DNA of 34,659 nt from Syntrophaceae bacterium UBA4778. GTDB taxonomy: Bacteria; Desulfobacterota; Syntrophia; Syntrophales; UBA4778. Numbering within the stretch: the first letter of the stretch is position 1; every line of letters starts with the position of its first letter. Shown piece after piece: positions 9,726-30,478 of the stretch. The stretch lies in contig DHHG01000137.1 in the NCBI GenBank assembly GCA_002403175.1, positions 1 through 34,659 on the forward strand, written 5' to 3'. Made by a program: the position numbers and the translations under genes. Below the pieces are notes generated by a model. The model searched no databases and was not told the origin of the DNA. It was given only the letters and a program-made list of their open reading frames with translations.

Positions 9726-9752
9726 AAGCAGCCTACTTTCTTTTTTAAAAGC

Positions 9753-10652: not shown

Positions 10653-10680
10653 ATAGCAGTCATCCTCAAAAAAATGTCCG

Positions 10681-11619: not shown

Positions 11620-11714
11620 TGGGAAACCTTTCTTATAGATAGATTTTATTCTGGTGTCATTCGCACGCAAACTGGAGTTGGGAATTTTAAACTATACATA
11701 CAATTCAGCTGTCA

Positions 11715-13138: not shown

Positions 13139-13921
13139 TTAACATATGCGGTAATTCTCATCAATGAGTGCATCTTTTTCTGTTCTGTTTGGATAATTTA
13201 TAAGTACGGCCCTGTAAATGCCTTTGAATACGAATAAGCTACCGGCGGCAGCACCAATAATCCCATACTGACTAATTAATTGTCCAATATCATTAAGCGA
13301 CCCTGCGCCACCAAGTACAGTCATCGGGATGGTGATCTTTTTCCGGATTTTCTCAACTATCGCAAGATCATATCCTTTCATTATACCGTCATTATCTATA
13401 GAATTAACTATTACTTCACCAACACCAAATTTTTCCAGTTGCATCGCAAACTTTATTGGACATTTTCCTGTGTTCTTTTTACCGTTATGTGTCCAGATCT
13501 CATAATTTTCACCTATCAACTTTTTCTTAACATCAATAACCACAACGACACTCTGGTTGCCAACTTGTTCTGCTATTTCAGAAACTAGTTTAGGGCTATC
13601 TATGGCAGCATAACTCAATGCAACCTTTTCAACGCCCAAAGCAATGATACTTTGTGCGTGCTCCGTTGTCTTTACACCGCCACCGTAACAGAGAGGCATT
13701 CGACATTCAGCGGCTAAATTATCAATCATTTTGAAGTCCGGCTCCGTGCCATTGGTAGTGGCATTAATATCCAGAACCATCAGCTCATCAACTTCCATTT
13801 CGTTAAAAATCCGAACTGCGTTGATAGGATCACCGACATACTTGGCGTCCCTGAAATTGACGGTTTTTACAAGTCTCTTATTTTTTACGAGCAGGCAAGG
13901 AATGATTCTAGGGCGCAGCAT
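13139..13921 (-). CDS. HisF-like ammonia-channel subunit for sugar amidination (HisF2 type)
   Basis: A 260-residue TIM barrel of the imidazole-glycerol-phosphate synthase HisF family (MLRPRIIPCLLVKNKRLVKT). The first catalytic Asp of biosynthetic HisF, in the CLDV motif, is Leu here (CLLV), while the second Asp is kept (VVIDVKK). That argues against histidine synthesis. In loci with WbpG, this HisF-like partner passes ammonia from the HisH glutaminase to the sugar amidotransferase. ATG 13921 lies one base after the HisH stop and gives the normal N-terminus; an in-frame TTG at 13936 would overlap HisH. Gene order WbpG-HisH-HisF with 1-4 bp junctions matches known acetamidino-sugar cassettes. 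It is the last gene before the dyad-rich gap. Confidence 0.9.
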   Translation of the reverse strand: MLRPRIIPCLLVKNKRLVKTVNFRDAKYVGDPINAVRIFNEMEVDELMVLDINATTNGTEPDFKMIDNLAAECRMPLCYGGGVKTTEHAQSIIALGVEKVALSYAAIDSPKLVSEIAEQVGNQSVVVVIDVKKKLIGENYEIWTHNGKKNTGKCPIKFAMQLEKFGVGEVIVNSIDNDGIMKGYDLAIVEKIRKKITIPMTVLGGAGSLNDIGQLISQYGIIGAAAGSLFVFKGIYRAVLINYPNRTEKDALIDENYRIC

Positions 13922-13922
13922 C

Positions 13923-14537
13923 TTAAATTTCAGCAAAATTTTTTAAGAGAGAAATGCCCCATTGATGGCTTTTTTCCGGATGAAACTGAACGCCGAAAAT
14001 ATTCCCAAAATGGACGGCGGACGCAAACTGCCCGCCATAGTCAGTCAGTGCAAGTATATTATCCGACTGATTGCAGTGAAAATGATAAGAGTGCAAAAAA
14101 TAAAAACGGCTGTCTGCATCAATATCTTTGAATAATCTGTTTTTTATAACCAGCCGGATATTGTTCCAGCCCATATGAGGAAGAGGGCTGGAGGAAGTTA
14201 ATTTTGCCCGGTCGAATTTTTTCACCACTCCGTCAATCCACCCTAACCCTTGCCGGTTGCCTTCCTCGCTGGAATGAGCCAGAATCTGCATTCCCACGCA
14301 GACACCCAGCACCGGTAGACACCGCTCGAGTACCAGCTCATCAAGGGCGTGCGTCATACCGGATATTTCAAGTTTTTGCATGGCATGATCAAAAGCTCCG
14401 ACTCCTGGCAAAATTATTTTCGTAATATTTTTTAAATGATCAGCTTTGGATGCAATGACAAAGGGCATGCCCAATTTGCTGTAAATATTAGCAAATGCCT
14501 TAATATTTCCCAACCCGTAGTTAATTATGCCAATCAT
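13923..14537 (-). CDS. HisH-like glutamine amidotransferase for sugar amidination
   Basis: A 204-residue class-I glutaminase of the HisH family, opening MIGIINYGLGNIKAF. The nucleophile Cys sits in VLGVCVGMQ (about residues 76-84), and the His-Glu pair in VQFHPEKS near the C-terminus. PGVGAFDHAM is the oxyanion-side strand typical of HisH. It hydrolyses glutamine and feeds ammonia through the HisF-like partner encoded 1 bp downstream. Its ATG overlaps the TGA of the WbpG-like gene (ATGA), so the three products are probably made in matched amounts. The context of an amidotransferase gene and surface-sugar genes, with no other his genes nearby, makes a role in nucleotide-sugar or glycan amidination much more likely than histidine synthesis. 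Confidence 0.92.
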   Translation of the reverse strand: MIGIINYGLGNIKAFANIYSKLGMPFVIASKADHLKNITKIILPGVGAFDHAMQKLEISGMTHALDELVLERCLPVLGVCVGMQILAHSSEEGNRQGLGWIDGVVKKFDRAKLTSSSPLPHMGWNNIRLVIKNRLFKDIDADSRFYFLHSYHFHCNQSDNILALTDYGGQFASAVHFGNIFGVQFHPEKSHQWGISLLKNFAEI

Positions 14538-15676
14538 CTAATAACTCTTTTTTCCACGCCTATCATTTGCATCACTTTGGCTCCTAAATTTATCAGAAAC
14601 ATATTGTTTTTATAGTCACGGAAAGACTTGTTTTCTCCGTCATACAGTTCCTGCAACTGGGCTGTGGTTAAGTCCAGCTTTTTCGCCACATATTCAAAGT
14701 CTTCCATCATTTCTGTTTCGCTTATTTCCGGCTTTGCTACACGCAAAAGCGCCTCGTCTCGGGTCATCTGATTGGTTAAAATTAAACTCGATAGGTGAGC
14801 TTTGCGCCTTTCATAACCAAACTTTTTAGGAAGCCAGAAACACTCCACGAATCTTGTAAATCGCGATTCATGATGCTTTTGGGCATATTTTTGCCAGCCG
14901 AAACGCTCCGTCAGCAAACGTATGGCATCTTCTTTGATATAAGGCACATAATCCAGCATTCGTAGCACTTTCACGCCCTTAATATACCGGTAATAAAGTT
15001 TATATTTAAAAATGTCCGCCGTGGGGAAAGTTTTTAAGGGCACTGTGCCGAAACGGCGATGAATATCATTCACAAAACGCATATCTGTCTGATAGTAAGC
15101 ACCCCATTCAAGTGGTTCACGGACACATTCCGTTGAATAGTTTCCGCCTGTTAAGATATATTTATAATTATTTTTCGCGGCAAAGTTGTAAAGAGATGAA
15201 AAAAAGCATAAATCCTGAGGGGTATCAACATTAGCGACCTGCGCTTTAAAAAACGCCAACTGCAAGTCTTTCATCTCTGACCATTCAATAACTTCCGTAT
15301 AGAGATCAAGCCCCAGCCCATCCACCATTCTTTGAATATTATTAGCGGACACTTCTGAATTCCAGCCGCCATCGACATGGAATATCAAGGGTCTTAAACT
15401 ATATTTTTCCTTGGCAAGATATGTTACGTATGAACTGTCAACACCTCCGCTTATACCGATCAAACAATCGTGATCACGACCCTTTCCATCCTTCTTGATC
15501 TTGTCAATGAGAGGGGCAAGCATTTTTTCACCCTTTTCATTTGGATGCCAATTCGGTTGTATATTTGTATAGTAATTGCGGCAATAGTCACACCAACCCC
15601 GTTCATCAAAAGTTATATCGGGATCAGTGGTGTCCATAATGCAGTTAGAACATATTTGATTTTTTACTTGACTCAT
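14534..15676 (-). CDS. N-acetyl sugar amidotransferase, WbpG/PseA-like
   Basis: A 380-residue PP-loop ATPase of the N-acetyl sugar amidotransferase family. An N-terminal CSNC...CDYC pair suggests a zinc ribbon, followed by the PP-loop IGISGGVDSS near residues 95-104 and HVDGGWNSE. The family uses ATP to activate an acetamido group and ammonia to replace its oxygen, giving acetamidino sugars; PseA acts in pseudaminic-acid pathways and WbpG in B-band O-antigen. With HisH and HisF directly downstream the full cassette is present. The substrate is not shown by sequence; a nonulosonic acid from the neighbouring module is the attractive candidate, an amidino-HexNAc the alternative. The 48 bp to the upstream glycosyltransferase gene contain no obvious terminator. 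Confidence 0.92.
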   Translation of the reverse strand: MSQVKNQICSNCIMDTTDPDITFDERGWCDYCRNYYTNIQPNWHPNEKGEKMLAPLIDKIKKDGKGRDHDCLIGISGGVDSSYVTYLAKEKYSLRPLIFHVDGGWNSEVSANNIQRMVDGLGLDLYTEVIEWSEMKDLQLAFFKAQVANVDTPQDLCFFSSLYNFAAKNNYKYILTGGNYSTECVREPLEWGAYYQTDMRFVNDIHRRFGTVPLKTFPTADIFKYKLYYRYIKGVKVLRMLDYVPYIKEDAIRLLTERFGWQKYAQKHHESRFTRFVECFWLPKKFGYERRKAHLSSLILTNQMTRDEALLRVAKPEISETEMMEDFEYVAKKLDLTTAQLQELYDGENKSFRDYKNNMFLINLGAKVMQMIGVEKRVIR

Positions 15677-19165: not shown

Positions 19166-20032
19166 TTATCTCTTTATTATGGCACTATCAAATAATGAGT
19201 CATAGTCAACCTTAGGAAAAACATCCAGGTAGTGACTTTTATTCGCATTAGCGTTAAATACATTTTTTTTTATTGAATAAAGATATTTATACTTTCTAAA
19301 TATATTCGCATGTCTTCGCATCTGGAATTCGCTGTCGGCAAAACTCAGATCTTCTTTATCCGGTCGCAGAACATGTTCTTTACCAGGGTCGAAAAAATAA
19401 ACCAGTGTCCCATTGAACCAATCATGATCAATACCAATGAGATAAATTTCTTTAAATCCGAAATACAATGTCACTGTTAAGGCTAGCTCTGAAACCGACC
19501 ATATGTGTGGTATACACATTAAATCAATAGGCGTATCAAAATCACCATTCCACCACGCATATTCCACCCAGTGTAGGATTCTGTCTTTGAATAGTCCATT
19601 TCTCTCGATCATCTCCCTGTCGCCAATATGAAAGAACATTTCCGCATCACCAGTTGCAGCCTCCATAGCTTTCAACCATGCGTTAAATTTCGCTTCTGTA
19701 TGCATTTCGCCATGACCCTTAATAAGCGGTGGAATAACGTGATAACGCGGCTTGATGAGTTGAAAGTCGGGATGCACAAATGTATTACTCACGCTAATGA
19801 CAATCTCACCTTCAAGCTTCTTGATATCTTGCCCCTTCACGGATGAACCGGCACCGAAAATAAAGCAACGAGAATCCACATGGCGGTCTTTTAAGCTATT
19901 GTTATCTGAAAGTAGGCTCTTATCATCTACACTCGTCAGGGCAAGCTTCAGATGCGATTTAGCCATCATCAGTCTTTGCCAAACACCGGGTGGAACCAGC
20001 CATTGTTCAATCAAATGTTTCCAATCAGACAT
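19166..20032 (-). CDS. Putative GT42/DUF115-like glycosyltransferase (candidate nonulosonic acid transferase)
   Basis: A 288-residue protein with no strong textbook signature, but with the layout of bacterial GT42 sialyltransferases and the related DUF115/MptE-like proteins. A glycine-rich nucleotide motif FIFGAGSSVKGQDIKKL (from residue 57) precedes VISVSNTFVHPDF and KPRYHVI. Later comes FGFKEIYLIGIDHDW (191-205), closely resembling the ALGYKEIYLSGIDF stretch that I recall from Campylobacter Cst enzymes. GAGSS departs from the usual GNGPS. It lies 3 bp after the flippase gene and before an acetyltransferase, in an operon whose upstream part looks like a CMP-nonulosonate pathway. A role in transferring that acid to the glycan is the natural inference. 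A DUF115 motility-type or other GT-A/Rossmann role is the alternative. Confidence 0.6.
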   Translation of the reverse strand: MSDWKHLIEQWLVPPGVWQRLMMAKSHLKLALTSVDDKSLLSDNNSLKDRHVDSRCFIFGAGSSVKGQDIKKLEGEIVISVSNTFVHPDFQLIKPRYHVIPPLIKGHGEMHTEAKFNAWLKAMEAATGDAEMFFHIGDREMIERNGLFKDRILHWVEYAWWNGDFDTPIDLMCIPHIWSVSELALTVTLYFGFKEIYLIGIDHDWFNGTLVYFFDPGKEHVLRPDKEDLSFADSEFQMRRHANIFRKYKYLYSIKKNVFNANANKSHYLDVFPKVDYDSLFDSAIIKR

Positions 20033-20035
20033 AAA

Positions 20036-21337
20036 TCATAAGTCTTTGCGAAGTATAAAGTAGATTAAAGGTGCAATAAAACTCGGCAGGCATGCCATCC
20101 AAACTATCATTTTATTAACAATAATTTTTTTAAACATAAAGCAGACCATCATCAAAATGGCTATGCTATAAATCGAGAGCGTCAGCAGCTGTGCTACAGC
20201 TGCAGCAAGATAATTCGAAGTCGAGGCAAATATGTGGATAAAGATGAAATAGACGGGGAGCGCCATCGCAATCAATGCAAGGTATGGTTTCGTTTTTCCC
20301 ATGCCAATCAGCAATGCCCCTTGTGTCACCATCACCGCGCAGTTGAATAACGACAACATCAGTGGTGCATAAATCCCATTGTCAATATTATATTTTGGAA
20401 AAATTATTTCCACAATGATCGGCGCAACATAGGTTAAAATAATCCCAGACAGAATAAATACTGGAGCAGAATAGATGATCAGTTTAAAGGCATAAACAAT
20501 TGCTTTTAATTGATCCTGTTCAACTAAGCGGTAGATTTTAATGGTTTGGGGCACAAACGCTGCAATGCCCATGGAAACTACAATTTGATAGATAGAACTA
20601 ACCAATCCATATTGGGACACGACTGCCTCCGGATAAAAAAAGGCCGCATAAATTCTTCCGGAGGATAATAACTGAAGCCACAGAGTAGTAATCATACAGA
20701 GAATTAAACCTTGGGCGATATTATCTCTGATTAGCGTCCATTGAATTCTCTTGATATCAGTCAAAGAACCATACAATACATTTCTGAATCGCCGGCTGAA
20801 AAGCATCGCCACGGCACTGAACAGTTGTCCTAAAAACCAACCTTTGACTCCTGCAAGCCATGCGCACGGCAGAATCGTCATCCGCGCTAAAGACTGCGCC
20901 ATTGTTATATTTCTTACATACCGAAAATCAGATTGCACCGTTGCGTTAAGTATTACAAACATTGTAACAACGCTAAACACGACAAGCATGAATAACATAC
21001 CCGCATTCAAACCATGCGGATATCTTTGAAAATAATAAACGAAGACCGCCCCCCCAAATACCAGGGATGTGAAGAACCTGAAATGGCTCAGTGTGGAATT
21101 CCATATTCGAATCTCATCTTGTTTATTGTTGGCGTAAAGCGCGGGTAACTTACGTGTATAAACAACAGACATGCCAAGATCAGCCAATTGAATGAATGAC
21201 ACTAGTACACCCACCACTACTACTTGCGCATACTCTTCGACGCTGAGTAATAGCGGGACGACAATAGCTATCAACAGGGCAGAAATTTGCTGGACAATAT
21301 TAGCAGTGAGATTGTCTCGGCTATCTTGAAAACTCAA
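20036..21337 (-). CDS. Wzx-like polysaccharide flippase (module 2)
   Basis: A 433-residue hydrophobic protein with repeated membrane segments, of the polysaccharide-transporter/MOP superfamily. The N-terminal part (LTANIVQQISALLIAIVVPLLLSVEEYAQ, given here only as the family pattern of an amphipathic lead plus first membrane helix) is followed by QLADLGMSVVYTRKLP, typical of Wzx. The start is TTG 21337-21335, the first start codon that gives a full N-terminus; no ATG lies near it. It probably flips the repeat unit containing the sugars made by the nonulosonate-like module. Low similarity in pattern to the first flippase (5778-7178) suggests the two serve different glycans or derive from different parental loci. 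It is followed after 3 bp by the GT42-like gene. Confidence 0.87.
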   Translation of the reverse strand: MSFQDSRDNLTANIVQQISALLIAIVVPLLLSVEEYAQVVVVGVLVSFIQLADLGMSVVYTRKLPALYANNKQDEIRIWNSTLSHFRFFTSLVFGGAVFVYYFQRYPHGLNAGMLFMLVVFSVVTMFVILNATVQSDFRYVRNITMAQSLARMTILPCAWLAGVKGWFLGQLFSAVAMLFSRRFRNVLYGSLTDIKRIQWTLIRDNIAQGLILCMITTLWLQLLSSGRIYAAFFYPEAVVSQYGLVSSIYQIVVSMGIAAFVPQTIKIYRLVEQDQLKAIVYAFKLIIYSAPVFILSGIILTYVAPIIVEIIFPKYNIDNGIYAPLMLSLFNCAVMVTQGALLIGMGKTKPYLALIAMALPVYFIFIHIFASTSNYLAAAVAQLLTLSIYSIAILMMVCFMFKKIIVNKMIVWMACLPSFIAPLIYFILRKDL

Positions 21338-21400: not shown

Positions 21401-21981
21401 TCATTTTTCAACCATCGCTTTCGTGATACATTCATCGATATTACTACTGTCATTCAAAACATTTCTATGAATGCGCCTGAGCAGCATATCCGACCGCCGG
21501 CTTAATCTAGCATACAACATACGAGAAATTTTGTGCGAGGGCTGTTCGATCATGCGGTATGCTAAATAGCAAAAAACGAGAACAACGGGAATCGATAGCA
21601 ACCTTTCTCCCCACCACTCCATGCGAAACATTCGAGTCAGCTGAGTAAAAACAATCATATGAAACAAATAATAAGTGAATAGCTCCACATCTCCATCTTA
21701 TCAAACAATAAACCGCATCCATCAGGGGCAGCCGAAATTTCAGCACTCAACCAGAAAAACACGAGCAATGAGAAAGCATTCATGGTCAGGAAGTAGCCAA
21801 CAGAAGTATTGATCGTTAACCAGTATAGAGCCGACGCAGTCAGAGTAATTGAAATTCTCCACAGGTAGATATTGTTACCAGTCGCTGGATATTGTCCTGT
21901 AGCTACTCGTTCAGCGAGAATACACCCGGCAAGCCAACTCGGCAGAGCAACGAGTGAGTTACGTAACTTTTGCTTATAATC
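21401..21981 (-). pseudogene. Acyltransferase-3 (OafA-like) remnant, 5'-truncated and frameshifted
   Basis: The minus strand encodes the C-terminal half of an acyltransferase-3 family membrane protein in two frames. From about 21981 the first frame reads LPSWLAGCILAER, then hydrophobic segments and MWSYSL, before running into TGA at 21657-21655. The family sequence resumes in another frame as YLFHMIVFTQ and ends LAYRMIEQPSHKI...MVEK at 21401. The break is near 21665-21685 in TTATTATT; removing two bases there would restore SYSLYLFHM, the usual family motif. The N-terminal half, with the catalytic His, is missing, and an in-frame stop lies at 21984-21982. The fragment sits just after the PIG-L deacetylase stop, so the deletion may have occurred when the locus was rearranged. 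Confidence 0.8.
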
Positions 21982-21996
21982 TTAACATTGTGCAGC

Positions 21997-22626
21997 TTAC
22001 TGTTCCAACCACTTCACTACCTCAAATACTTCTGCTAGATTGACACCAATTCTCTGACCGGCATTTTCCGCTTCATTTTTAAAAAATCTCGCCCATTTTT
22101 TTCCTGTTCGTTCCATTTCGGAAACGTGCGCAAGAATAGCTTTTTCTTTCGTGACCCATGAATCAGTAATATCCACGTAAAAGTTGCCCTTAAAATCGAG
22201 ATTGGAATGATACCAATTACTTCTATACATCAACAGCCGTGGCACGTGACGGCAACTATGGAGGGAGGCTTTTGCAACAGCTTGATGATCATGGTGAATA
22301 TCACCAATCCAATGTGCATAAACCATATCTATACGTTTATCTTCAACGATCTTTACAATATCTGCATTCAATGCATCGTCAAATTCAACTTCCAGTGTCT
22401 TGAATTTACCACAAACGAATTGTACACCCATTATCTCCATTGCCATTTTACCTTCGGCTAAAGCTACATCGTTTGATCTCACGGTCTCATTGTTGGTATT
22501 TTTAAAACCTGACACTGTGGCTATATAAGCATAAACATTGTCTCCCTTTGCGACGTGTTTGGCCAGTGTGCCACCACACCCCAACTCAATGTCATCAAAA
22601 TGAGCGCCTATCGCTAGAATATTCAT
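21997..22626 (-). CDS. PIG-L family N-deacetylase
   Basis: A 209-residue PIG-L/LmbE-like deacetylase, a zinc hydrolase removing acetyl groups from N-acetyl sugars. The metal motif HFDDIELGCGG (HxDD) is at residues 8-18 and the second metal His lies in DIHHDHQAV. ATG 22626-22624 shares its A with the TAA of the WbqC-family gene and has AAGGAG seven bases upstream, so it is preferred over an in-frame start at 22668 inside the neighbour. The family includes GlcNAc-PI deacetylase, BshB/MshB and various lipid- or nucleotide-sugar deacetylases. Directly after WbqC, it may free an amino group on the locus sugar so that a different acyl or amino substituent can be attached; that is inference. Confidence 0.92.
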   Translation of the reverse strand: MNILAIGAHFDDIELGCGGTLAKHVAKGDNVYAYIATVSGFKNTNNETVRSNDVALAEGKMAMEIMGVQFVCGKFKTLEVEFDDALNADIVKIVEDKRIDMVYAHWIGDIHHDHQAVAKASLHSCRHVPRLLMYRSNWYHSNLDFKGNFYVDITDSWVTKEKAILAHVSEMERTGKKWARFFKNEAENAGQRIGVNLAEVFEVVKWLEQ

Positions 22627-23318
22627 TAGTAACTCCTTAGGATTTCGCGTGATTTTGCAATTCCACAATTAAATAACAGATCAATACTGCTCAGATAGGG
22701 GATGAAATCGCCATGAAGCTGTGGATAAACCGGGTGTTTGAAGTCCTGCCAGATTACTTCAATACCAGCGGCTGCAAACGGCACCGGATCATAATATGCC
22801 CTTGCGCCCACTCCAGAAAGGTATTTATCGGCCTTTACCCTTTTCAGAATATCCACCAAAAGTGCATTACTTTTCCCCACAGGATCCAAATCACTGGCCA
22901 TTTCTGTTTTAATTTTGATACCAAAAAGTTTCATCAGCACTTCAGAAGATTTTAAATTAAATTCCATGAGCCTTTTGCATTCAAATCTATAGAGGTCATT
23001 AATATATGGCATCACTTCATCAAAAAAAGGTGCCTTGCTATAACTGTTATGAACCAGATTAAGGTTGTCCCGGCGCCAATTGCTTTCAGAAAGAAAAATA
23101 TCTTTGATCGCCGTGCCAACGGGTGCCCTTTGCACAGAAACGGTTATCCACTTTTCACCTTGTGCCGTTTTAATCTTATCCCTGTTTTGCCAGCTTCTGC
23201 TGGTGCCAGATACAAACTGCACAGTATCCAGTACTACCCACATGTCAGCATTCAGGAATCTGTGAAAAAAACCCAGGTGGGAGAGAAAATCCGGTTGATG
23301 AATAACAACCGTTTTCAT
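22626..23318 (-). CDS. WbqC-family protein
   Basis: A 230-residue member of the WbqC family (PF08889). Recognisable blocks are VVIHQPDFLSHLGFF, VVLDTVQFVSGTSRSWQNR, KWITVSVQ, YLSGVGARAYYD, and HPVYPQLHGDFIPYLSSIDL with LLFNCG. The biochemical role of the family is, to my knowledge, not settled; its genes are found in polysaccharide and antibiotic clusters, often beside aminotransferase or deacetylase genes. The ATG overlaps the PseG-like stop (ATGA), and the stop overlaps the deacetylase start. Its position between a nonulosonate-type hydrolase and a deacetylase suggests an acyl- or amino-modifying step on the same sugar, possibly re-acylation after deacetylation. Confidence 0.9.
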   Translation of the reverse strand: MKTVVIHQPDFLSHLGFFHRFLNADMWVVLDTVQFVSGTSRSWQNRDKIKTAQGEKWITVSVQRAPVGTAIKDIFLSESNWRRDNLNLVHNSYSKAPFFDEVMPYINDLYRFECKRLMEFNLKSSEVLMKLFGIKIKTEMASDLDPVGKSNALLVDILKRVKADKYLSGVGARAYYDPVPFAAAGIEVIWQDFKHPVYPQLHGDFIPYLSSIDLLFNCGIAKSREILRSY

Positions 23319-24262
23319 AGAGATTTTACCTCTCTGAGAATATTTTCTACACCGTCAGTTTTAATCTTTTCAATGCCAATTTTGCTCATGTCCTTCAGAT
23401 TGTATTCCATGCTAAAGACCTTCTCTTCAAGCGTTTGATAATATCCAGCAAAAATTGAAGACCCTACTTCAGCCAGATATTGCCCGATTTCAATCTCGTG
23501 TGGTTCATTGGCGACTATTATGCAGGGAAGGCCTGAGGCATTTGCCTCAAATGGTGTTACTCCACCACCCGTGATCGCGAGATCATGATGGATATACTCT
23601 CGGATCAAAGATGGCACAGCTCTCTTTACGGTGTATCTTTCATCTATGATCTGTTCAAGTTCTGCTTGATGCTTAAAGGATTGACCAACAACAACAGTTG
23701 CTTTCTTGTTCAGTCTTTTCAGCAAAGCAACAATTTGCATCGTTACACCATAGGTGTCGCTTCCGCCAAGTGTCACCAAAATAGAGTTCAGATGTTCACG
23801 TAGGCGCCTGCAGGCTTCAATCTCCCTATTGAGCGATAGATAATGGATGCCCGTCAGTATCCGCTTCCCCCGGAGCAGCTCTTTGCCGGAAAAAACCAGG
23901 GGTGCAAAATGAAGGTCTGCCAAAGGTGCCCCTGTTCCGCGATCATCAAAAGTAACAAGTTTCACACCATGTTTCTTTACATGCTCAGCATGTCTTTTAT
24001 CAGTATCAAGTCGGTCATTGATCCAAGTGGTGATTCCATATTGTTTGATAATCGTTGTTTCCCAGTCAGATAGCGTGTCATTCAGATTTACTATTACATG
24101 TGCAACCCCTCTTTGTTTTAAGATCATTATTGACATGGGGTCGTCATTCACCATGACGACATACCGTTTCTGCGGTCCATCAAGATGTTCAATAAAATTT
24201 AAACTTTTGAAAAGATGGCCCAAGCCGCGGTTATGTGACGCTTCAATACAAAAACCTATCAC
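23315..24262 (-). CDS. PseG/SpsG-like nucleotide-sugar hydrolase
   Basis: A 315-residue GT-B-fold protein of the PseG/SpsG family. GLGHLFKSL near residues 13-21 corresponds to the G-x-GH-x-x-R region of PseG, although Lys stands in place of the usual Arg. VTFDDRGTG, ILVTLGGSDTYG, ITGGGVTPFEANASGLP and IVANEPHEIEIGQYLAE continue the family pattern (GGs, the acceptor-like loop and the Asn/Glu block). PseG cleaves UDP from the 6-deoxy diacetamido sugar before condensation with phosphoenolpyruvate by the NeuB-like synthase; SpsG is the spore-coat relative. The start is GTG 24262 overlapping the TGA of the SpsF-like gene (GTGA). It is placed as the hydrolysing step of the pathway. Confidence 0.87.
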   Translation of the reverse strand: MIGFCIEASHNRGLGHLFKSLNFIEHLDGPQKRYVVMVNDDPMSIMILKQRGVAHVIVNLNDTLSDWETTIIKQYGITTWINDRLDTDKRHAEHVKKHGVKLVTFDDRGTGAPLADLHFAPLVFSGKELLRGKRILTGIHYLSLNREIEACRRLREHLNSILVTLGGSDTYGVTMQIVALLKRLNKKATVVVGQSFKHQAELEQIIDERYTVKRAVPSLIREYIHHDLAITGGGVTPFEANASGLPCIIVANEPHEIEIGQYLAEVGSSIFAGYYQTLEEKVFSMEYNLKDMSKIGIEKIKTDGVENILREVKSL

Positions 24263-24972
24263 GGATTAGCTACTTTCCTCGCATACTCTTCAGCCAGATC
24301 AATGGCTTGCTTCGTTGTAATGTAATCCACATGACTTTTTTCGGCAATATAACAGGCTTGCTCATAATCCTCCATGGTATCCACGGTAAGTCTTAGATCA
24401 GGCCTGTTCTTGTCTTTTGCGACAGAAAGCAGCGCTGTTTTGAAAATCTGGGGATTTTCCAACAGGTACTCATTAACATGCTCGAGATGATGGGGAGCTT
24501 TGCCTTCTCGCCAACTTTTCTCCAGCGAGGCGAAAGTGAATATTTCTGCTCCCACTCCAACCGGCAGGCTTGCAAAAGAATTGGCGTAGTCTGTTCCCCC
24601 TGAGAGGTGTAAATCAATCAGGTTGTCCAGCTCCTCAATATCAGGAAACGGATTGTCACCCGTCAGGCGAACGATGTGCTCAAAACCATAAGCTTTGGCA
24701 CATTGATAATAGCGATCCAGCACATTGGCCTCGCTCCCACGGAAACAGGCTACTAAACGTTCGATGCAGAAACTCTCAACAATATTATCTTGTAATGTCT
24801 CAGAAGTAGCGATCACGGGTGTGGCAGAATGCCGTAAGCGTTTCAGACGATATAATATATGATCGAGAAGCGCTTTGTTTCCGATGGTCATCAGGACCTT
24901 ACCTGGCAGTCGTGTCGATCCAATGCGCGCCTGTAGAATAATGCCGAGCCGATTTTTTGATTTAACGCACAT
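24259..24972 (-). CDS. SpsF-like cytidylyltransferase
   Basis: A 237-residue nucleotidyltransferase of the SpsF/KdsB/NeuA-like GT-A group. IILQARIGSTRLPGK is the CTP-binding N-terminal signature; FRGSEANVLDRYYQCAK, RLTGDNPFPD (with the metal-binding Asp) and LRLTVDTMEDYEQA follow. SpsF-type enzymes occur with SpsE and SpsG in spore-coat and nonulosonate loci and are expected to form the CMP-sugar. I start at ATG 24972, with a GTG immediately upstream as alternative; either lies inside the last codons of the NeuB gene, so translation is coupled. The 3' end overlaps the PseG-like start. The reaction proposed is CTP plus nonulosonic acid to CMP-acid, by analogy with LegF/NeuA; the substrate is inferred. 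Confidence 0.88.
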   Translation of the reverse strand: MCVKSKNRLGIILQARIGSTRLPGKVLMTIGNKALLDHILYRLKRLRHSATPVIATSETLQDNIVESFCIERLVACFRGSEANVLDRYYQCAKAYGFEHIVRLTGDNPFPDIEELDNLIDLHLSGGTDYANSFASLPVGVGAEIFTFASLEKSWREGKAPHHLEHVNEYLLENPQIFKTALLSVAKDKNRPDLRLTVDTMEDYEQACYIAEKSHVDYITTKQAIDLAEEYARKVANP

Positions 24973-25975
24973 CACTCCATGTAATCACTTCATCTGCATC
25001 GAGTTGCCTGTTAAGAACACAACCGTCAATTTGTTCAAAATACTTGGGTGCTATTCCCAAGCCAGGGCGTTTGATAGCCATATCCTGGGGCGTGAGCAAA
25101 TGCCCTGCGGGTAAGCTTTTGGCAGCCACAATACTCTTACGGTTGTTGAGCCTTGTTGTATGTTCAGCGGCAGCCGGCATTTTGATGCCGTTACCGAACA
25201 TTTTCTCCAAGGTGCGGACTTGTTCAACAATGGATTTCATTTCAGCTGGATCAGCCGACAGCATATGGTCTGGACCTTCAGCGTTTTTATCGATAGTAAA
25301 ATGTTTTTCAAGTACCGCGGCGCCCATTGCTGCTGCAGCAATACAAGCTACAGTGCCAATCGTATGATCGGAGTAGCCGACCGGCAAATCGAATTCATCC
25401 ATCATCTTCTTCATGGCTAAAAGATTGACATGTTCAGGATGGGTCGGGTAACTTGTAACAGCATGTAAGAGCACAAGCTGACTGTTTCCCTCACCCAGTA
25501 TGGCAGCGACCGATTCTTTCACCTCTTCCATGGTGCACATTCCGGTTGCCAGAATGATCGGCTTACCCTTGCGAGCTATGTATTTTAAAAAGGGGATGTT
25601 GACTGCGTCGTCCGAACCGATCTTGAACGCCTTAACACCAAGCTTTTCCAACATATCCACATCGGTTTCGTGGGAGGGGGTCGAAAACCAGTCCAGTTTT
25701 TTTGTCTGAATGTAATTGAATACCTGCCAATGTAGCTTTTCATCAATCTCGTATTTTTTAAACAGGTCGAATTGGGATGTTAGTCCCGTGTTTTCCATGT
25801 CGAAAATTGCTTTCTTGCTGGATATGGTTTCGGCGCGATAGGTTTGTAACTTTATGGCGTCAACACCACAGGTTTGAGCAGCATCTATCAGAACCATCGC
25901 TTCTTTAAAAGTTGTAAAATTCCCGCCGATTTCAGCAACGATGTATATATTTTTTCTTGCCCCAAATAAATTCAT
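24962..25975 (-). CDS. NeuB/SpsE-like nonulosonic acid synthase
   Basis: A 337-residue N-acetylneuraminate/legionaminate/pseudaminate synthase family protein. IVAEIGGNF and GVDAIKLQTY open the TIM barrel. FSTPSHETDVDML, FKIGSDDAVNIPFL, PIILATGMCTMEEV, LHAVTSYPT and EKHFTIDKNAEGPDH (metal and substrate side) follow, and the last ~60 residues (NRKSIVAAKSLPAGHLLTPQD) are the SAF/antifreeze-like domain. The enzyme condenses a free six-carbon amino sugar with phosphoenolpyruvate to give a nine-carbon acid. It starts 2 bp after the hexapeptide acyltransferase and overlaps the SpsF-like gene. Which acid is formed cannot be read from sequence; upstream genes suggest a 6-deoxy precursor, hence a 9-deoxy acid such as a legionaminic/pseudaminic type or a variant. 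Confidence 0.93.
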   Translation of the reverse strand: MNLFGARKNIYIVAEIGGNFTTFKEAMVLIDAAQTCGVDAIKLQTYRAETISSKKAIFDMENTGLTSQFDLFKKYEIDEKLHWQVFNYIQTKKLDWFSTPSHETDVDMLEKLGVKAFKIGSDDAVNIPFLKYIARKGKPIILATGMCTMEEVKESVAAILGEGNSQLVLLHAVTSYPTHPEHVNLLAMKKMMDEFDLPVGYSDHTIGTVACIAAAAMGAAVLEKHFTIDKNAEGPDHMLSADPAEMKSIVEQVRTLEKMFGNGIKMPAAAEHTTRLNNRKSIVAAKSLPAGHLLTPQDMAIKRPGLGIAPKYFEQIDGCVLNRQLDADEVITWSDVR

Positions 25976-25977
25976 GA

Positions 25978-26559
25978 TTATTCGCCTCGATATTTAATTA
26001 TTTTTGCGGGAACGCCACCCACAATAGCATAGGGGGGTACGTCTTTAGTTACTACTGCATTGGAACCTATAACAGCATGGTTTCCCAACGTTACACCTTT
26101 TAAAATTCTTGCGCCTACTCCAATCCATACATCTTTGCCGATAACGACAGGTTCGATAACCGCTTCCTGATTCATAATAAGATCATCTTTGTCGAAACCA
26201 TGACCGTGGTCAATTATTTGAACGTAAGCGCCTATGCGAGTGAAATCTCCAATCGTTATAGATCCCTTTACCGCAATAATGTTGTTTCTTCCGATGACAA
26301 CATTGTCACCAATAATTAATTTTGGTTCTGGTTTTGTTAGTTGAAAAAATGCATAATTCTGTACAACGCAATGGTCACCAAAAACAATTGTTGCATTATC
26401 CGTCAATCTAAACTCAACATAACTTTTACATATGGTGCCTTTCCCATAGGCAATGCCTTTAAGTTTCATACTGAAAAGTGTTCTGATTTTGTCAACGATG
26501 GATATGTGCCTTACTCCTGCCCGATCCGCCCACTTACTTGAATCTTTCAAAGTTACCAT
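25978..26559 (-). CDS. Hexapeptide acyltransferase of the sugar-acetylating type
   Basis: A 193-residue left-handed beta-helix acyltransferase. Helix turns run from about residue 45 (GKGTICKSYVEFRLTDNATIVFG in pattern) to VWIGVGARILKGVTLG and VTKDVPPYAIVGGVPAKIIKYR, with HGHGFDK as the candidate catalytic His loop. It belongs with WcaF/DapH/CatB-like enzymes. In the usual legionaminate pathway an N-acetyltransferase (LegH) acts after the aminotransferase; here this enzyme occupies that slot although no aminotransferase is seen. O-acetylation is equally possible. ATG 26559-26557 overlaps the stop of the SDR gene and is preferred to a start at 26634 deep inside that gene. The synthase gene follows 2 bp downstream. 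Confidence 0.87.
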   Translation of the reverse strand: MVTLKDSSKWADRAGVRHISIVDKIRTLFSMKLKGIAYGKGTICKSYVEFRLTDNATIVFGDHCVVQNYAFFQLTKPEPKLIIGDNVVIGRNNIIAVKGSITIGDFTRIGAYVQIIDHGHGFDKDDLIMNQEAVIEPVVIGKDVWIGVGARILKGVTLGNHAVIGSNAVVTKDVPPYAIVGGVPAKIIKYRGE

Positions 26560-27422
26560 TTCGCTATCCCGGATAAAAAATTCGATAATGTCTTGGAACA
26601 GCGCCAACCTAAAGCCTGATAAATGGACTGGCAATCGGCAACGGTGTCTGGTATCTCATTTTGCCTGACTTCCCCGGTAGAACGCCAGCCTGCGGTATTG
26701 CCGGCTGCCTGGATAACTGTCTCGACAATTTCACGCACTGATAGTGAATAACCTGACCCCACATTGAAAATTCGGAACTGATCTGGCGCCTGCATTGCAA
26801 GAATACATGCTTCAATAAAATCGTCTACATGCAAATAGTCGCGCCGGGGGGCATCATCCTTTACAACGATTTCTTTTCCCTCCTTTGCCTGCATGATAAT
26901 CCACGGCAGAAGGAATCGTGTATCCTGCCCGGGGCCGTAAAGATTGAATCCCCGCAGGACAGTAACTTTGACCCCCATGTTCCCGGCATAAAACCGGCAG
27001 AGCTCCTCACCAAGCCACTTTGAATGCGCGTAAGGGTTGTTCGGAGCGACTGGATGATGTTCATCGATAGGTAAATATTGAGGCACCCCATAAACATATG
27101 CGCTAATGTAAATCATATGCGCGCCGACCGCACGGCAAAAATCAAGAGTGTTTTGCGTTCCCAGGAAGTTGACGGCGTAGAATTCGCCGGCATTGTTCCA
27201 ACTGTCTGGTACAAATGTGAGACCGGCCAGATGGAAAATAATATTTATGCCTTTATCCAAAAAAGGGGTAAAGGCATTTTTATCCAGAATATTATGACCA
27301 CGCGAACGAGCAAAATGATGTACGGTAGCACCACGCAAGCCAAGGCAACTGACGAGTGGCTTACCAATAAACCCGGTAGATCCCGTAACAAGAATGTTTT
27401 GTGGAATATCTTTTTTTATCAT
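26553..27422 (-). CDS. NAD-dependent nucleotide-sugar epimerase/reductase (SDR)
   Basis: A 289-residue extended SDR. ILVTGSTGFIGKPLV is the Rossmann signature, IIFHLAGLTFVPDSW follows, and the catalytic region reads YISAYVYG plus YAHSKWLGEEL. RGFNLYGPGQ, RRDYLHVDDFIEA and IFNVGSGYSLSV complete the family pattern. Similar proteins reduce 4-keto-6-deoxy nucleotide sugars (RMD/TLD type) or epimerise them. In this operon, after a LegB-like dehydratase and without a visible aminotransferase, 4-keto reduction is a plausible role and would leave a hydroxyl where legionaminic and pseudaminic acids carry nitrogen. It lies 13 bp after the radical SAM gene and overlaps the acyltransferase by a few bases. 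Confidence 0.87.
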   Translation of the reverse strand: MIKKDIPQNILVTGSTGFIGKPLVSCLGLRGATVHHFARSRGHNILDKNAFTPFLDKGINIIFHLAGLTFVPDSWNNAGEFYAVNFLGTQNTLDFCRAVGAHMIYISAYVYGVPQYLPIDEHHPVAPNNPYAHSKWLGEELCRFYAGNMGVKVTVLRGFNLYGPGQDTRFLLPWIIMQAKEGKEIVVKDDAPRRDYLHVDDFIEACILAMQAPDQFRIFNVGSGYSLSVREIVETVIQAAGNTAGWRSTGEVRQNEIPDTVADCQSIYQALGWRCSKTLSNFLSGIAKW

Positions 27423-27435
27423 GTACTGTCAGCAC

Positions 27436-28512
27436 TTACTGTCCAATGTTTTGCGCCCTGTTGACATAATTTTTAATTATAAATTTCCGGCCGTTGATCT
27501 GGGCGATCTCACTGTCTTGTGTCAACCTTGGTAGATAACATCTGCCGCAAACCGGAATTTTGAGAAATCCATTCTTCAGGCGGTGAGTGTCCCTTATCCG
27601 GTTGATCGCATCACCGTGCCAGATGTCATAAATACTCTCACGATGAGCATCACCAACGATCATTGTTCCTTCCTCGTCATTGGAACACATCATAACCTGT
27701 CCGTCCGCACCCACAACAAGACGTTGATATAATTGACAACAGGAGAAATCATTTTCATAAATAATTTCATCGTCCTTACCCAGATAGTCGATGAGTGGAT
27801 TGAAGGCGATCAAATCCACGTGCGGCGCAATTGTATTATAGAACTTTTCGGGATTTTCCTTAATGGAAGGCCAGATGGCTTGAACTTTAATAACGGGCCT
27901 GTGGGCTTTGGCCTCATCCTTGATTCTCTTGATGTCCTGCAGCTTACGTAACATTTCACTAAATTTCAGCGGCTTGCGGATGCTCTCATACATATCGTCC
28001 AGTCCATCCACCGAAATGGTAATCCAGTCGATGCCAGCATCCATCATTTTCTTGAAGAAATCTGCCGAAAGTTTACTGCCATTGGTCAGCATCGAAACCT
28101 CGCGCACACCCTTTCCTTTGGCATATTCGACACATTCAATAAACTTCGGGTGTATGGTTGGTTCGCCTCTCAAGCTCAATCTGATAGCCGGTACCTTTCC
28201 GTCTGTTTCATCAATTATTTTTGTAAAAAGTCCCCAATCCATTAGGCAGGCCTTCACCTTCTGCTTGAATTCTTCAGTTATGGTGTAGCACATCGGACAG
28301 TGTAGGTTGCACAGCGTTGAGAGTTCCAGATCTACAAGGAGCGGATATTCAGAAATGTATTGTTTTTTCGGATAGTCCGACCAATTACTACGATAGCGTA
28401 AGTATTCCGTTTCCCAACCCTCTCCACGATATTTCTCAAACAGGGCTTCGCGCTCGGGAGTTTCCATGGAGTAATTGCCTTTATTGATCGGCATATTTCC
28501 AGATAGGGTCAT
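27436..28512 (-). CDS. Radical SAM/SPASM-like protein in nucleotide-sugar operon
   Basis: A 358-residue radical SAM enzyme. The [4Fe-4S]/SAM motif CNLHCPMC (Cys68, Cys72, Cys75; CxxxCxxC) lies near the start of the barrel; GEPTIHP (116-122) and MLTNGSKL (141-148) are the expected GGE-like and loop motifs. A C-terminal SPASM/twitch-like region carries Cys258, Cys259, Cys276, Cys322 and Cys325 (VCGRC), enough for an auxiliary iron-sulfur cluster. The ATG is 7 bp after AAGG and 4 bp downstream of the nucleotidyltransferase stop. Known relatives modify peptides, sugars (for example dehydrogenation, deoxygenation or epimerisation in aminoglycoside pathways) or tRNA. Embedded between nucleotide-sugar enzymes, it most likely performs a radical step on the pathway sugar; the reaction is unknown. 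Confidence 0.92.
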   Translation of the reverse strand: MTLSGNMPINKGNYSMETPEREALFEKYRGEGWETEYLRYRSNWSDYPKKQYISEYPLLVDLELSTLCNLHCPMCYTITEEFKQKVKACLMDWGLFTKIIDETDGKVPAIRLSLRGEPTIHPKFIECVEYAKGKGVREVSMLTNGSKLSADFFKKMMDAGIDWITISVDGLDDMYESIRKPLKFSEMLRKLQDIKRIKDEAKAHRPVIKVQAIWPSIKENPEKFYNTIAPHVDLIAFNPLIDYLGKDDEIIYENDFSCCQLYQRLVVGADGQVMMCSNDEEGTMIVGDAHRESIYDIWHGDAINRIRDTHRLKNGFLKIPVCGRCYLPRLTQDSEIAQINGRKFIIKNYVNRAQNIGQ

Positions 28513-28516
28513 AGCG

Positions 28517-29221
28517 CTACCTTAAGAATCTGCCCTTTAAAATTTCAAATTCATCAATTGCCTTGCTGTAATCGTCCGATCGCCCGATATCAAGCCAGTA
28601 TCCGTCAAACTTCTTGACCGCCGCAGGATGCTTGTCAGAAATGAGATCGATCATAAGATTATCAAAGCCATAAGCTTGATCTGCGGGAATATACGACAAC
28701 ACATCCCTGCTGACCATATAAACACCCATACTCACATCGTATCTGATGACCGGCTTTTCCTTAAACCCCGTCATTCGTCCCGAGTCGTCAAGCTCCAGTA
28801 CCCCGAATTCGGAGGGCACTTCACGCTGGTAGGCGGAAATAGTAAATAAGTTTTGCTGTTTAATATGGAAGTTAAAAAAATCCCTGAAATCAAGGTCAGT
28901 CAGGATATCGCCATTCATCAGGAGAAAGTTATCCGGCAGATCATGAATCAGCTTCAAAGGACCAATTGTACCCAGTGGCTGGCTTTCCAATGAATAATCG
29001 ATTTTTACCCCCCACTTGTTACCGTTTTCAAAAAATGCCTTAATGATATCAGCCTGATGATTAACAGCCAGCGTAATGTGGCTGAACCCATAATATGCTA
29101 GTTGCCTAATAATGACTTCAAGGATAGGATACTCACCGATGGGCATCAGCGGCTTAGGCAAAACAACCGTGTATGGTCGCAGCCGTGTTCCTTTACCACC
29201 CGACAAAATAACTGCACGCAT
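28517..29221 (-). CDS. Sugar-1-phosphate nucleotidyltransferase
   Basis: A 234-residue NTP transferase of the RmlA/ManC/GlmU-N type. The N-terminal signature is MRAVILSGGKGTRLRPYT with PKPLMPIGEYP; LNGD-like LLMNGDILTDLD carries the metal Asp; FKEKP and GYWLDIGRSDDY are the usual downstream motifs. It lacks the N-terminal CBS domains of PtmE, which makes GDP-GlcN(Ac) for Campylobacter legionaminic acid, yet it occupies the equivalent position next to a LegB-like dehydratase. It probably activates the hexosamine that the dehydratase uses; whether the nucleotide is UDP, GDP or other is not decided by sequence. It starts at ATG 29221, after a 246-bp non-coding gap that follows the LegB-like gene. 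Confidence 0.88.
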   Translation of the reverse strand: MRAVILSGGKGTRLRPYTVVLPKPLMPIGEYPILEVIIRQLAYYGFSHITLAVNHQADIIKAFFENGNKWGVKIDYSLESQPLGTIGPLKLIHDLPDNFLLMNGDILTDLDFRDFFNFHIKQQNLFTISAYQREVPSEFGVLELDDSGRMTGFKEKPVIRYDVSMGVYMVSRDVLSYIPADQAYGFDNLMIDLISDKHPAAVKKFDGYWLDIGRSDDYSKAIDEFEILKGRFLR

Positions 29222-29467
29222 AATGAACTCTCTCTTGCTAATCCAATTTAAAATTCATTCACTGCTATGTAAGTGAACCCAAATTCAGCAGAAACTTTGA
29301 AACCATTGAAAAACTATCAATTATGTTGTTTTTATCTATGTAAGGATTCTTTATCAAGTGCAAATATTTTAGCTATCCAGATGTTATTACTCCCAGAAAT
29401 AACATATTCAAAAGTTTCGTAATAAAAACATCTCAAGTCTATAATGCTATCGATACGCAGCGGCACT
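29222..29467. other. Non-coding gap with one inverted repeat
   Basis: No gene is visible in these 246 bp. A perfect 8-bp inverted repeat, ATGTTATT at 29381-29388 and AATAACAT at 29398-29405 with a 9-nt loop, lies about 60 bp after the LegB-like stop on the transcribed strand. It has no run of T after it, so it is at most a weak processing or pausing hairpin. In comparable legionaminate loci an aminotransferase gene follows LegB, and this gap is where one would be expected. Confidence 0.35.
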
Positions 29468-30478
29468 TCAGATATTATATTGTGCCGACTTGTATTGCTT
29501 TAAATTCTCAGTATTTGTAAACCATACAACCGTTTCCTGCAAACCCCTTTGAAGTCCTTCAATGCCAGCATAGACAGGTGCCCAACCAGCTATTTTTTGG
29601 GCTTTACTGTTATCAGCCCAGAGTCGCGCTACTTCACTATTTTCAGGCCTGATGCGTTGTTCATCACATTCAATATCAATGTGCGTGCCCATGATATCGG
29701 CTATAGTTTTTACAGTTTCGCCGACAGAGATTTCATAGTTACTGCCTATATTAATAACTTCCCCAATGGCCTGATCTGACACCGCCACGGCAATGAAACC
29801 CTTCACGGTGTCATTCACATAATTGAAATCCCTTGTCGGATGTAATGAGCCTAATTTTATTTTTCTGGCACTGCTGGCAATCTGTATAATGACACTCGGG
29901 ATAACCGCTCGGGCCGATTGTCTGGGCCCGTAAGTATTAAAAGGCCGAACAATACTTACTGGCGTATTAAAAGCATGGTAAAAAGACATTGCAATCTGAT
30001 CCGCCCCAATTTTGCTTGCAGAATAGGGAGATTGTCCCTGTAATGGATGATCTTCTGTAATTGGCACAAATCTGGCCGTCCCATAGACTTCACTAGTGGA
30101 TGTATGAATGACTTTGGATATTCCAAGTTCCCGTGCGGCCTGAACAATATTGAGAGTTCCTTTTACATTTGTATCAATGTAGGTATCCGGCGAATGATAT
30201 GAGTAAGGGATAGAAATCAAAGCTGCAAGGTGGAAAACAACATCACACCCTTTCATGGCATGTCTGACACCATAGGGATCACGCACATCCCCTGCAATAA
30301 TTTCAATACTCTTTTTAATATCAGGATCAGAATGATCAAGCCATCCCCACGAATTAAATGAATTATACAGGACGAAGGCGCGTATGGCATGCCCGCGTCT
30401 GACAAGTTCCTCCGTAAGGTGAGAGCCTATGAAGCCATCAGCACCAGTGATAAGGATTCTTTTGTTTTTTAACTCCAT
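29468..30478 (-). CDS. LegB-like NDP-sugar 4,6-dehydratase
   Basis: A 336-residue SDR very close in pattern to LegB-type 4,6-dehydratases. It has ILITGADGFIGSHLTEELVR, then RAFVLYNSFNSWGWLDH, a stretch I associate with the LegB group. VVFHLAALISIPYSYHSP, HTSTSEVYGTARFVPI, the catalytic YSASKIGAD, and RPFNTYGPRQSARAVIP follow. LegB converts GDP-GlcNAc to the 4-keto-6-deoxy sugar on the way to legionaminic acid. It is the first biosynthetic gene after the regulator, about 430 bp downstream of it. LegC would normally follow but is not in the window. Family call firm, nucleotide preference inferred. Confidence 0.92.
   Translation of the reverse strand: MELKNKRILITGADGFIGSHLTEELVRRGHAIRAFVLYNSFNSWGWLDHSDPDIKKSIEIIAGDVRDPYGVRHAMKGCDVVFHLAALISIPYSYHSPDTYIDTNVKGTLNIVQAARELGISKVIHTSTSEVYGTARFVPITEDHPLQGQSPYSASKIGADQIAMSFYHAFNTPVSIVRPFNTYGPRQSARAVIPSVIIQIASSARKIKLGSLHPTRDFNYVNDTVKGFIAVAVSDQAIGEVINIGSNYEISVGETVKTIADIMGTHIDIECDEQRIRPENSEVARLWADNSKAQKIAGWAPVYAGIEGLQRGLQETVVWFTNTENLKQYKSAQYNI

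Follow-up and report, generated by a model that had tools for sequence, protein, structure and literature searches.

What completes a nonulosonic acid operon from which the usual aminotransferase is missing? Nonulosonic acids help to determine the character of bacterial surfaces, and the usual classification of their genes distinguishes legionaminic (Leg), pseudaminic (Pse), and neuraminic (Neu) routes. The question was raised by a stretch of 34,659 bases from Syntrophaceae bacterium UBA4778 (contig DHHG01000137.1, positions 1 to 34,659; hereinafter referred to as the window), whose minus strand carries genes for a LegB-type dehydratase, a nucleotidyltransferase (NT), a radical S-adenosylmethionine enzyme (rSAM), an extended short-chain dehydrogenase/reductase (SDR), a hexapeptide acyltransferase, a NeuB-family synthase, an SpsF-like cytidylyltransferase, a PseG-like hydrolase, a WbqC-family protein, and a PIG-L family deacetylase (Table 1). 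An earlier note, made from the DNA alone, had suggested that the 4-keto group of the LegB product is reduced and not aminated. The comparative analysis described here indicates that the product of the operon is probably an activated nonulosonic acid that is 9-deoxy and has oxygen at C7, with PIG-L and WbqC exchanging the group on N5 and with rSAM and the acyltransferase as tailoring enzymes.

The absence of a pyridoxal phosphate aminotransferase from the window, as claimed in the earlier note, was borne out. Of the 601 six-frame stretches of at least 30 amino acids (aa), none matched a profile of 20 DegT/DnrJ/EryC1 aminotransferases at E ≤ 10, and tblastn with 73 DegT proteins against all 34,659 bases gave a best E value of 0.028. 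Other aminotransferases were not found by Pfam and NCBIfam scans of the cassette open reading frames (ORFs) and many long ORFs of the window, the profile search being aimed at the DegT family alone.

Related loci were collected by way of rSAM, for which 1844 protein relatives were found at E ≤ 0.001. Genome contigs were scanned with a profile from a 27-sequence rSAM alignment, and the best 80 of 168 loci (L001 to L080) were analysed. In this survey for the same gene set, as proposed in the earlier note, 32 of the 80 loci, 11 of them from Rhizobium, had all nine core genes within the fetched stretch, namely LegB, NT, SDR, rSAM, NeuB, SpsF, PseG, WbqC, and PIG-L. Co-occurrence of the cassette genes is far beyond chance, and the cassette is spread over many phyla: hosts among the best 80 loci included Rhizobiales, Burkholderiales, Nitrospira, Nitrospina, Chlorobiaceae, Bacteroidetes, Lachnospiraceae-type bacteria, and many others.

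Loci with an SDR scoring more than 300 bits against a profile of 26 SDRs (A3) were classed as SDR loci, which gave 39 loci, or 28 without the 11 from Rhizobium. Across L001 to L080, 54 DegT ORFs were detected, and none lay inside the cassette of an SDR locus, taken as the span from its first to its last gene (0/39). The cassette contained no extra ORF of at least 90 aa, except a relative of the 288-aa protein listed in Table 1, in 14 of these 39 loci (8 from Rhizobium). In five loci, namely L036, L065, L067, L069, and L072 (a short contig), DegT was encoded inside the cassette and the SDR was missing; DegT was followed by a GNAT protein in L065 and L069 and by a formyltransferase in L067. The arrangement rSAM-DegT-WbqC was also present in L076, within a more divergent set. 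Judged by gene content, the SDR and the aminotransferase are thus mutually exclusive within the cassette. The earlier note had placed the SDR and rSAM together in the position of the aminotransferase; this holds for the SDR, and it does not hold for rSAM, which coexists with DegT and which two complete cassettes lack (L116 and L117, see below).

Among 43 dereplicated loci, DegT occurred in 0/30 SDR loci versus 4/13 others (Fisher p = 0.006), a count that ignores kinship, was entered by hand, and leaves out L072, the NeuB ORF of which was too long for the tree. In the NeuB tree, the cassette NeuBs formed a single supported group (43 rows, 99/93), within which the DegT label has to change twice, a single change being permitted by 0% of 200 bootstrap trees, although strongly supported branches alone force just 1 change and the tree carries a long-branch warning.

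The best solved match of profile A3 was GDP-6-deoxy-D-mannose reductase (RMD; solved structures 6x3b and 2pk3), with 6x3b at an E value of 1.6e-55, followed by MoeE5, other epimerases/dehydratases, and GalE proteins. The substrate of RMD presumably lacks a 2-acetamido group, unlike the substrate proposed for the SDR, the function of which is predicted. Extended SDR 4-ketoreductases have a Ser-Tyr-Lys set without the Asp-Glu pair of the dehydratases. In the SDR family, motifs of the type S-x-[YCP]-x-YG and Y[AG]x[ST]K were conserved in 44 and 43 of 46 members, respectively (SAYVYG in the window), and the dehydratase Asp-Glu pair was not found, unlike in LegB, whose motif STSEVYG was present in 42/43 cassette LegBs.

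Independently of rSAM, the SDR profile was searched in 299, 398, 296, and 298 genomes, with matches in 3, 5, 6, and 1 of them; of the 15 matching genomes, 7 were already known and 8 were new. Complete cassettes without rSAM were identified in L116 and L117. Four further loci (L118, L121, L122, and L123) contained a LegB-NT-SDR unit with no NeuB nearby and with an adjoining PF00534 glycosyltransferase, located upstream in L122 and accompanied by a Bac_transf protein in L118. SDR-NT alone was present in L119 and L120, and no NeuB match was obtained in the genomes of these two. Three other genomes, that of L118 aside, had just 31-32% NeuB relatives. The SDR thus works in a unit that should yield a nucleotide sugar in finished form, in line with a function as 4-ketoreductase. 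Reduction of the 4-keto group in place of its amination, giving a 9-deoxy, 7-hydroxy acid, is most likely on these comparisons, because the SDR and DegT replace each other, no close DegT was detected in SDR-type genomes (see below), and the LegB-NT-SDR unit occurs by itself. The proposal of the earlier note is thus favoured by the swap, by relatives without a cassette-type aminotransferase, and by RMD as the best solved relative of the SDR.

Besides the limits of the Fisher count and of the tree, several observations weigh against reduction. The SDR motif fits C4-epimerases too, which fill much of the list of PDB matches, and the genome containing the L118 unit (G723) encodes a 39% NeuB relative about 26 kb away. 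Although the C4-C6 region of NeuB differed between SDR-type loci and 4/5 DegT-type loci, which speaks for reduction, L036 has DegT yet an SDR-type region and is without an N-acyltransferase, the neighbours being a methyltransferase and a sulfotransferase. Neither the SDR nor DegT was encoded inside the cassette in L002, L003, L031, L054, L059, L066, L074, L075, and L077, whose NeuBs carry the cassette-type Asp described below; L066 is a short contig, and a different SDR, more distantly related, is encoded in L002 and L003. Further, PseC exceeded its cut-off in 10/45 genomes of relatives, that is, in 7/38 of SDR type, 2/5 of DegT type, and 1/2 with neither.

The PseC matches, together with DegT family members in 21/21 genomes tested, favour a different explanation, in which an aminotransferase encoded elsewhere adds the C4 nitrogen, the product is an ordinary 5,7-diamino acid of the legionaminic or pseudaminic type, and the SDR does something else. 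The earlier note had called for a genome-wide search for LegC/PseC/SpsC homologues; the test made here rests on the genomes of relatives, in which LegC, PseC, and a cassette DegT were sought. LegC scored above its cut-off in 0/45 of these versus 1/14 control genomes. This count was rejected as sole proof of absence, for which it is weak because the cassette DegTs tested fall below the cut-off too, and the DegT of L067 was instead searched directly in 41 genomes. Its best matches had 47-71% identity (365-618 bits) in each of the 4 remaining DegT-type genomes, and no close relative was found in 36 SDR-type genomes (top match 41% identity, 243.7 bits). The search thus returned neither a LegC above the cut-off nor a close relative of the cassette DegT from SDR-type genomes and left the seven PseC matches standing. 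In L013, PseC adjoins the cassette, and another SpsF-like gene comes after it, an arrangement suggestive of a pseudaminic route of its own. A DegT gene that precedes LegB by about 3 kb in some loci (Rhizobium and others) was considered as the missing LegC and rejected: the L021 copy groups with RmlA, which precedes it, and an ATP-binding cassette (ABC) exporter gene, which follows it, and has just 177.5 bits to PseC, compared with 319-351 bits for the cassette DegTs of L067, L069, and L036; the other copies were judged by gene order. Moreover, the 14 SDR cassettes without an extra ORF have no spare gene for the N-acyltransferase that amination needs. Amination by an enzyme encoded elsewhere is accordingly regarded as very improbable. 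A somewhat less remote explanation, still improbable, makes the SDR a C4-epimerase or gives it another role and assigns the decisive chemistry at or near C4 to rSAM, in the manner of BtrN or DesII. BtrN acts on an aminocyclitol and DesII on an amino sugar, and these two were the nearest structures to the AlphaFold model of rSAM (predicted local distance difference test score, pLDDT, 86). The sequence exceeded the cut-offs of PF04055 and PF13186 (SPASM) and contained a CxxxCxxC-type motif (CNLHCPMCY). Proteins in which rSAM and the SDR are fused (P0041 and P0108), as well as epimerases among the SDR relatives, also speak for this explanation. On the other side, rSAM was absent from the complete cassettes L116 and L117, as checked in whole genomes (no match in G174 and a distant 65-bit match in G126, with positive controls at 609 and 637 bits), and the LegB-NT-SDR unit occurred without rSAM in four further genomes; in the 8 genomes from the SDR search, no rSAM was found at E ≤ 1e-20 in a run without controls. 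In addition, rSAM accompanied DegT in L065, L067, L069, L072, and L036 and was also encoded in NeuB clusters of another, second kind. Because it is absent from L116 and L117 and present in DegT cassettes and in this second cluster kind, rSAM appears to be a tailoring enzyme and not a stand-in for LegC; its role as replacement of the aminotransferase was rejected, as it coexists with DegT and is missing from two complete cassettes.

The group on the C5 nitrogen was approached through NeuB. The window NeuB has Asp at the C2-substituent position (KIGSDDAVN), as do all cassette NeuBs aligned, versus Gly in Neu and Leg synthases or Phe in Pse synthases. This position and the C4-C6 region were taken from section 7 of PMC7371886, and the assignment agreed with the Gly/Phe pattern of the reference NeuBs. 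WbqC was encoded in 49/51 loci with Asp-NeuB, the 2 exceptions being short contigs, versus 0/16 loci without Asp. The HxDDxE metal motif was present in 43/45 PIG-Ls of Asp-NeuB loci, and the best NCBIfam model for the window PIG-L was BshB1 (72.8 bits, below the cut-off of 182.5). For WbqC, PF08889 was the sole Pfam match, no NCBIfam model matched at E ≤ 0.001, and its profile (A2) matched no PDB chain at E ≤ 1. The structural model of WbqC resembles the fold of the bacillithiol synthase BshC. The cassette thus recalls the bacillithiol pair BshB/BshC in that a sugar N-deacetylase is paired with a protein whose model has a BshC-like fold; it differs in that its PIG-L is below the BshB1 cut-off and in that WbqC has 230 aa versus 540 aa in BshC, with about 10% identity and no Pfam family other than WbqC. 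In the literature searched, as judged by title or start of abstract, no function of WbqC was found, and BshC was absent from the top matches of a search combining it with polysaccharide or nonulosonic acid.

An amino acid transfer by WbqC to N5 is weakened by several of these results: the Asp-WbqC association tracks one clade, the resemblance to BshC is a fold match alone, with about 10% identity and no Foldseek match at E ≤ 0.001, and class I lysyl-tRNA synthetase (LysRS) scores 11.8 for the WbqC fold. PIG-L and WbqC might act on another sugar of the polysaccharide, or be unrelated to aminoacylation of N5, with the core of the pathway as proposed. Both functions are predicted, a fold match is not proof of function, and a weak relative of PIG-L (28%) is encoded in L051, where NeuB is without the Asp. 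Both proteins are, however, core members of the cassette in its SDR-type, DegT-type, and rSAM-less forms, and WbqC follows Asp-NeuB in the proportions given above. We regard an action elsewhere as possible but rather unlikely.

The pathway that we propose, with reduction at C4 and a change of the N5 group, builds on sequence comparison, that is, on gene content, the swap of SDR and aminotransferase, the LegB-NT-SDR unit, the Asp-WbqC association, and the fold resemblance; all of the reactions are predictions, as are the nucleotide, the stereochemistry, the order in which PIG-L and WbqC act, and the amino acid. NT would make nucleoside diphosphate (NDP)-N-acetylglucosamine, perhaps with GDP, which LegB would convert to the 4-keto-6-deoxy sugar. 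At the point where the LegC and PseC pathways aminate, the SDR would form a hydroxyl from the 4-keto group by reduction, which yields NDP-2-acetamido-2,6-dideoxyhexose. The PseG-like enzyme would free the sugar from the nucleotide, and NeuB would condense it with phosphoenolpyruvate to the 5-amino-3,5,9-trideoxy-nonulosonate skeleton. The cytidine monophosphate (CMP) derivative of the acid would be formed by the SpsF-like enzyme. At some stage PIG-L would take off the 2-N-acetyl group and WbqC would add another group, most likely an amino acid, to the freed nitrogen, which becomes N5 of the acid. The steps of rSAM and the acyltransferase would be tailoring. A more detailed version is offered tentatively and is, taken as a whole, unlikely: after reduction of the 4-keto group, the BshB-like PIG-L frees the C2 amine before or around the NeuB step, in agreement with the Asp pocket, WbqC adds an amino acid, and rSAM then modifies that group in most of the lineages surveyed.

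Compared with the legionaminic pathway (LegB/C/H/G/I/F of Campylobacter jejuni; sps genes of Bacillus subtilis), the cassette shares LegB, NT, a NeuB-type synthase, and an SpsF-like cytidylyltransferase; in contrast, it is without LegC, a clear LegH, or LegG, has Asp in place of Gly in NeuB, and adds the SDR, WbqC, PIG-L, and rSAM. We take SpsG of B. subtilis to be PseG-like. According to a passage of PMC7439481, B. subtilis needs spsG for legionaminic acid.

The earlier note had also considered the product possibly a new acid. Tetradeoxy acids are described in a section of PMC7371886 as the commonest bacterial nonulosonic acids, with one trideoxy compound reported; this compound is fusaminic acid of Fusobacterium nucleatum ATCC 25586, as stated in an extract of PMC13014188, and fusaminic acid is also mentioned in parts of PMC5595891 and PMC10915975. 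It belongs to the same predicted skeleton class (3,5,9-trideoxy), with one nitrogen, at C5, and hence oxygen at C7. With fusaminic acid, one natural 3,5,9-trideoxy nonulosonic acid is in print; the predicted skeleton class is thus known chemistry, and the suggestion of a new acid has to be qualified. In the open-access literature searched, partly by top matches and by titles and abstract starts, no gene route to a fusaminic-type acid was found, nor was a link between nonulosonic or legionaminic acid and a radical SAM enzyme; top matches for Rhizobium looked irrelevant by title. Fusaminic acid bears a 5-acetimidoyl group, which may be compared with the acetamidino-forming set encoded at 13139-15676 of the window. 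This set comprises a WbuX-type N-acetyl sugar amidotransferase (304.6 bits, cut-off 203.2), HisH (228.4 bits, cut-off 105.4), and an AglZ/HisF2 acetamidino protein (377.8 bits, cut-off 310), and could act on the nonulosonate or on the N-acetylfucosamine (FucNAc)-type sugar made by the adjoining gene set described below.

As to further hosts, the SDR relatives P0236, P0198, and P0202 belong to Leptospira interrogans, L. bouyouniensis, and Leptospira sp., respectively, and the excerpts of two Leptospira papers (PMC3438082, PMC4758666) speak solely of legionaminic, neuraminic, and pseudaminic sets. No Fusobacterium was present among the named SDR relatives within the best 120 of 7618 matches, most of these being nameless. 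The second kind of NeuB cluster with the same rSAM family was found in L041, L038, L039, L046, L051, L053, L057, and others. It contained an iron-containing alcohol dehydrogenase (Fe-ADH), DegT, a fusion of a cytidylyltransferase-like start with a PseG-like part, SpsF, NeuB with Ser or Ala at the C2 position, DUF4910/DUF2172, a FemAB-like protein, and rSAM. FemAB relatives move amino acids, and the FemAB-like protein is thus a hint of aminoacyl groups near rSAM. In L010 (Lachnospiraceae), rSAM and NeuB stood beside ORFs resembling, by eye, an AMP ligase and a DUF4910-type protein and beside one with the size of a carrier protein.

The operon consists of overlapping or near-adjacent minus-strand ORFs from 30478 to 21997 (Table 1). 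All genes named in the earlier note, from LegB-like to SpsF-like, were present at the positions given there, with families matched by Pfam/NCBIfam. These genes are real, but the end point of the span 23315..30478 was set too early, as the operon runs on into WbqC and PIG-L, which the gene list had missed and which carry the more unusual part. Both ORFs overlap a neighbouring gene and are part of the conserved cassette.

Table 1. Coordinates and family assignments of the operon genes and of a possible associated transferase gene; functions are predicted.
Feature	Coordinates	Strand	Evidence
LegB-type NAD-dependent 4,6-dehydratase, 336 aa	29468..30478	-	TIGR04180 536.2 bits, cut-off 475
Sugar-1-phosphate nucleotidyltransferase (NT), 234 aa, possibly GDP-forming	28517..29221	-	PF00483 142 bits
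Radical SAM/SPASM enzyme (rSAM), 358 aa, optional tailoring step (predicted)	27436..28512	-	PF04055 52.9 bits, PF13186 43.1 bits
Extended SDR, 289 aa, proposed 4-ketoreductase on LegB product	26553..27422	-	Epimerase SDR family; profile match
Hexapeptide acyltransferase, 218 aa, optional	25978..26634	-	PF00132
NeuB-family nonulosonate synthase, 337 aa, NeuB plus SAF	24962..25975	-	PF03102 286.5 bits
SpsF-like CMP-nonulosonate cytidylyltransferase (CTP_transf_3), 238 aa	24259..24975	-	PF02348 102 bits
PseG/SpsG-like nucleotide-sugar hydrolase, 315 aa	23315..24262	-	TIGR03590 72.4 bits, below cut-off 153.55
WbqC-family protein (PF08889), 230 aa, BshC-like fold, proposed amino-acid ligase	22626..23318	-	
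PIG-L family sugar N-deacetylase, 223 aa, BshB-like	21997..22668	-	PF02585 64.4 bits, cut-off 28.2; HFDDIE metal motif
288-aa protein, possible Maf/MptE-like nonulosonate transferase	19166..20032	-	PF01973 20.1 bits, below cut-off 34.6

LegB had 72 bits against the PseB model, below the cut-off of 407.75. For NT, the top NCBIfam model was mannose-1-phosphate guanylyltransferase, followed by Arch_glmU and guanylyltransferase HddC, all below their cut-offs. The PseG-like hydrolase failed the equivalog test for PseG and matched no Pfam family. A LegG hydrolysing 2-epimerase was not found in the window, where the operon hydrolase was PseG-like only and a WecB-like protein had 83.5 bits to NeuC (cut-off 235.9); a PseB and PseC pair was not found in the operon, and an FnlA-like protein of the window had 310.4 bits to PseB, below the cut-off. 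Relatives of the hexapeptide acyltransferase lay inside 6/39 SDR cassettes, its position being taken elsewhere by a methyltransferase (L019), an acyltransferase-3 protein (L018), or nothing. Relatives of the 288-aa protein were located 3' of PIG-L in many cassettes.

The flanks of the window resemble an O-antigen locus, with glycosyltransferases and an O-antigen ligase domain, and a 433-aa protein without a Pfam family was encoded at 20036-21337. Between PIG-L and the next gene (21401-21980, minus strand), a short, broken remnant was seen that resembles, by eye, a membrane acyltransferase. An FnlA-like dehydratase, an RmlD-like reductase, and a WecB-like epimerase were encoded at 8598-12740, a trio which we take to be the usual UDP-L-FucNAc set.

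In the usual sorting, the cassette would pass for a legionaminic acid set with genes missing. The combination LegB-NT-SDR-NeuB-SpsF-PseG-WbqC-PIG-L may instead serve as a gene signature for the rare 7-hydroxy, 9-deoxy class of nonulosonic acids. The cassette is a candidate route to fusaminic-type acids, and it offers a testable swap of SDR and aminotransferase as well as a functional hypothesis for the WbqC family. If aminoacylation by WbqC is true, this would be the first functional role for WbqC.

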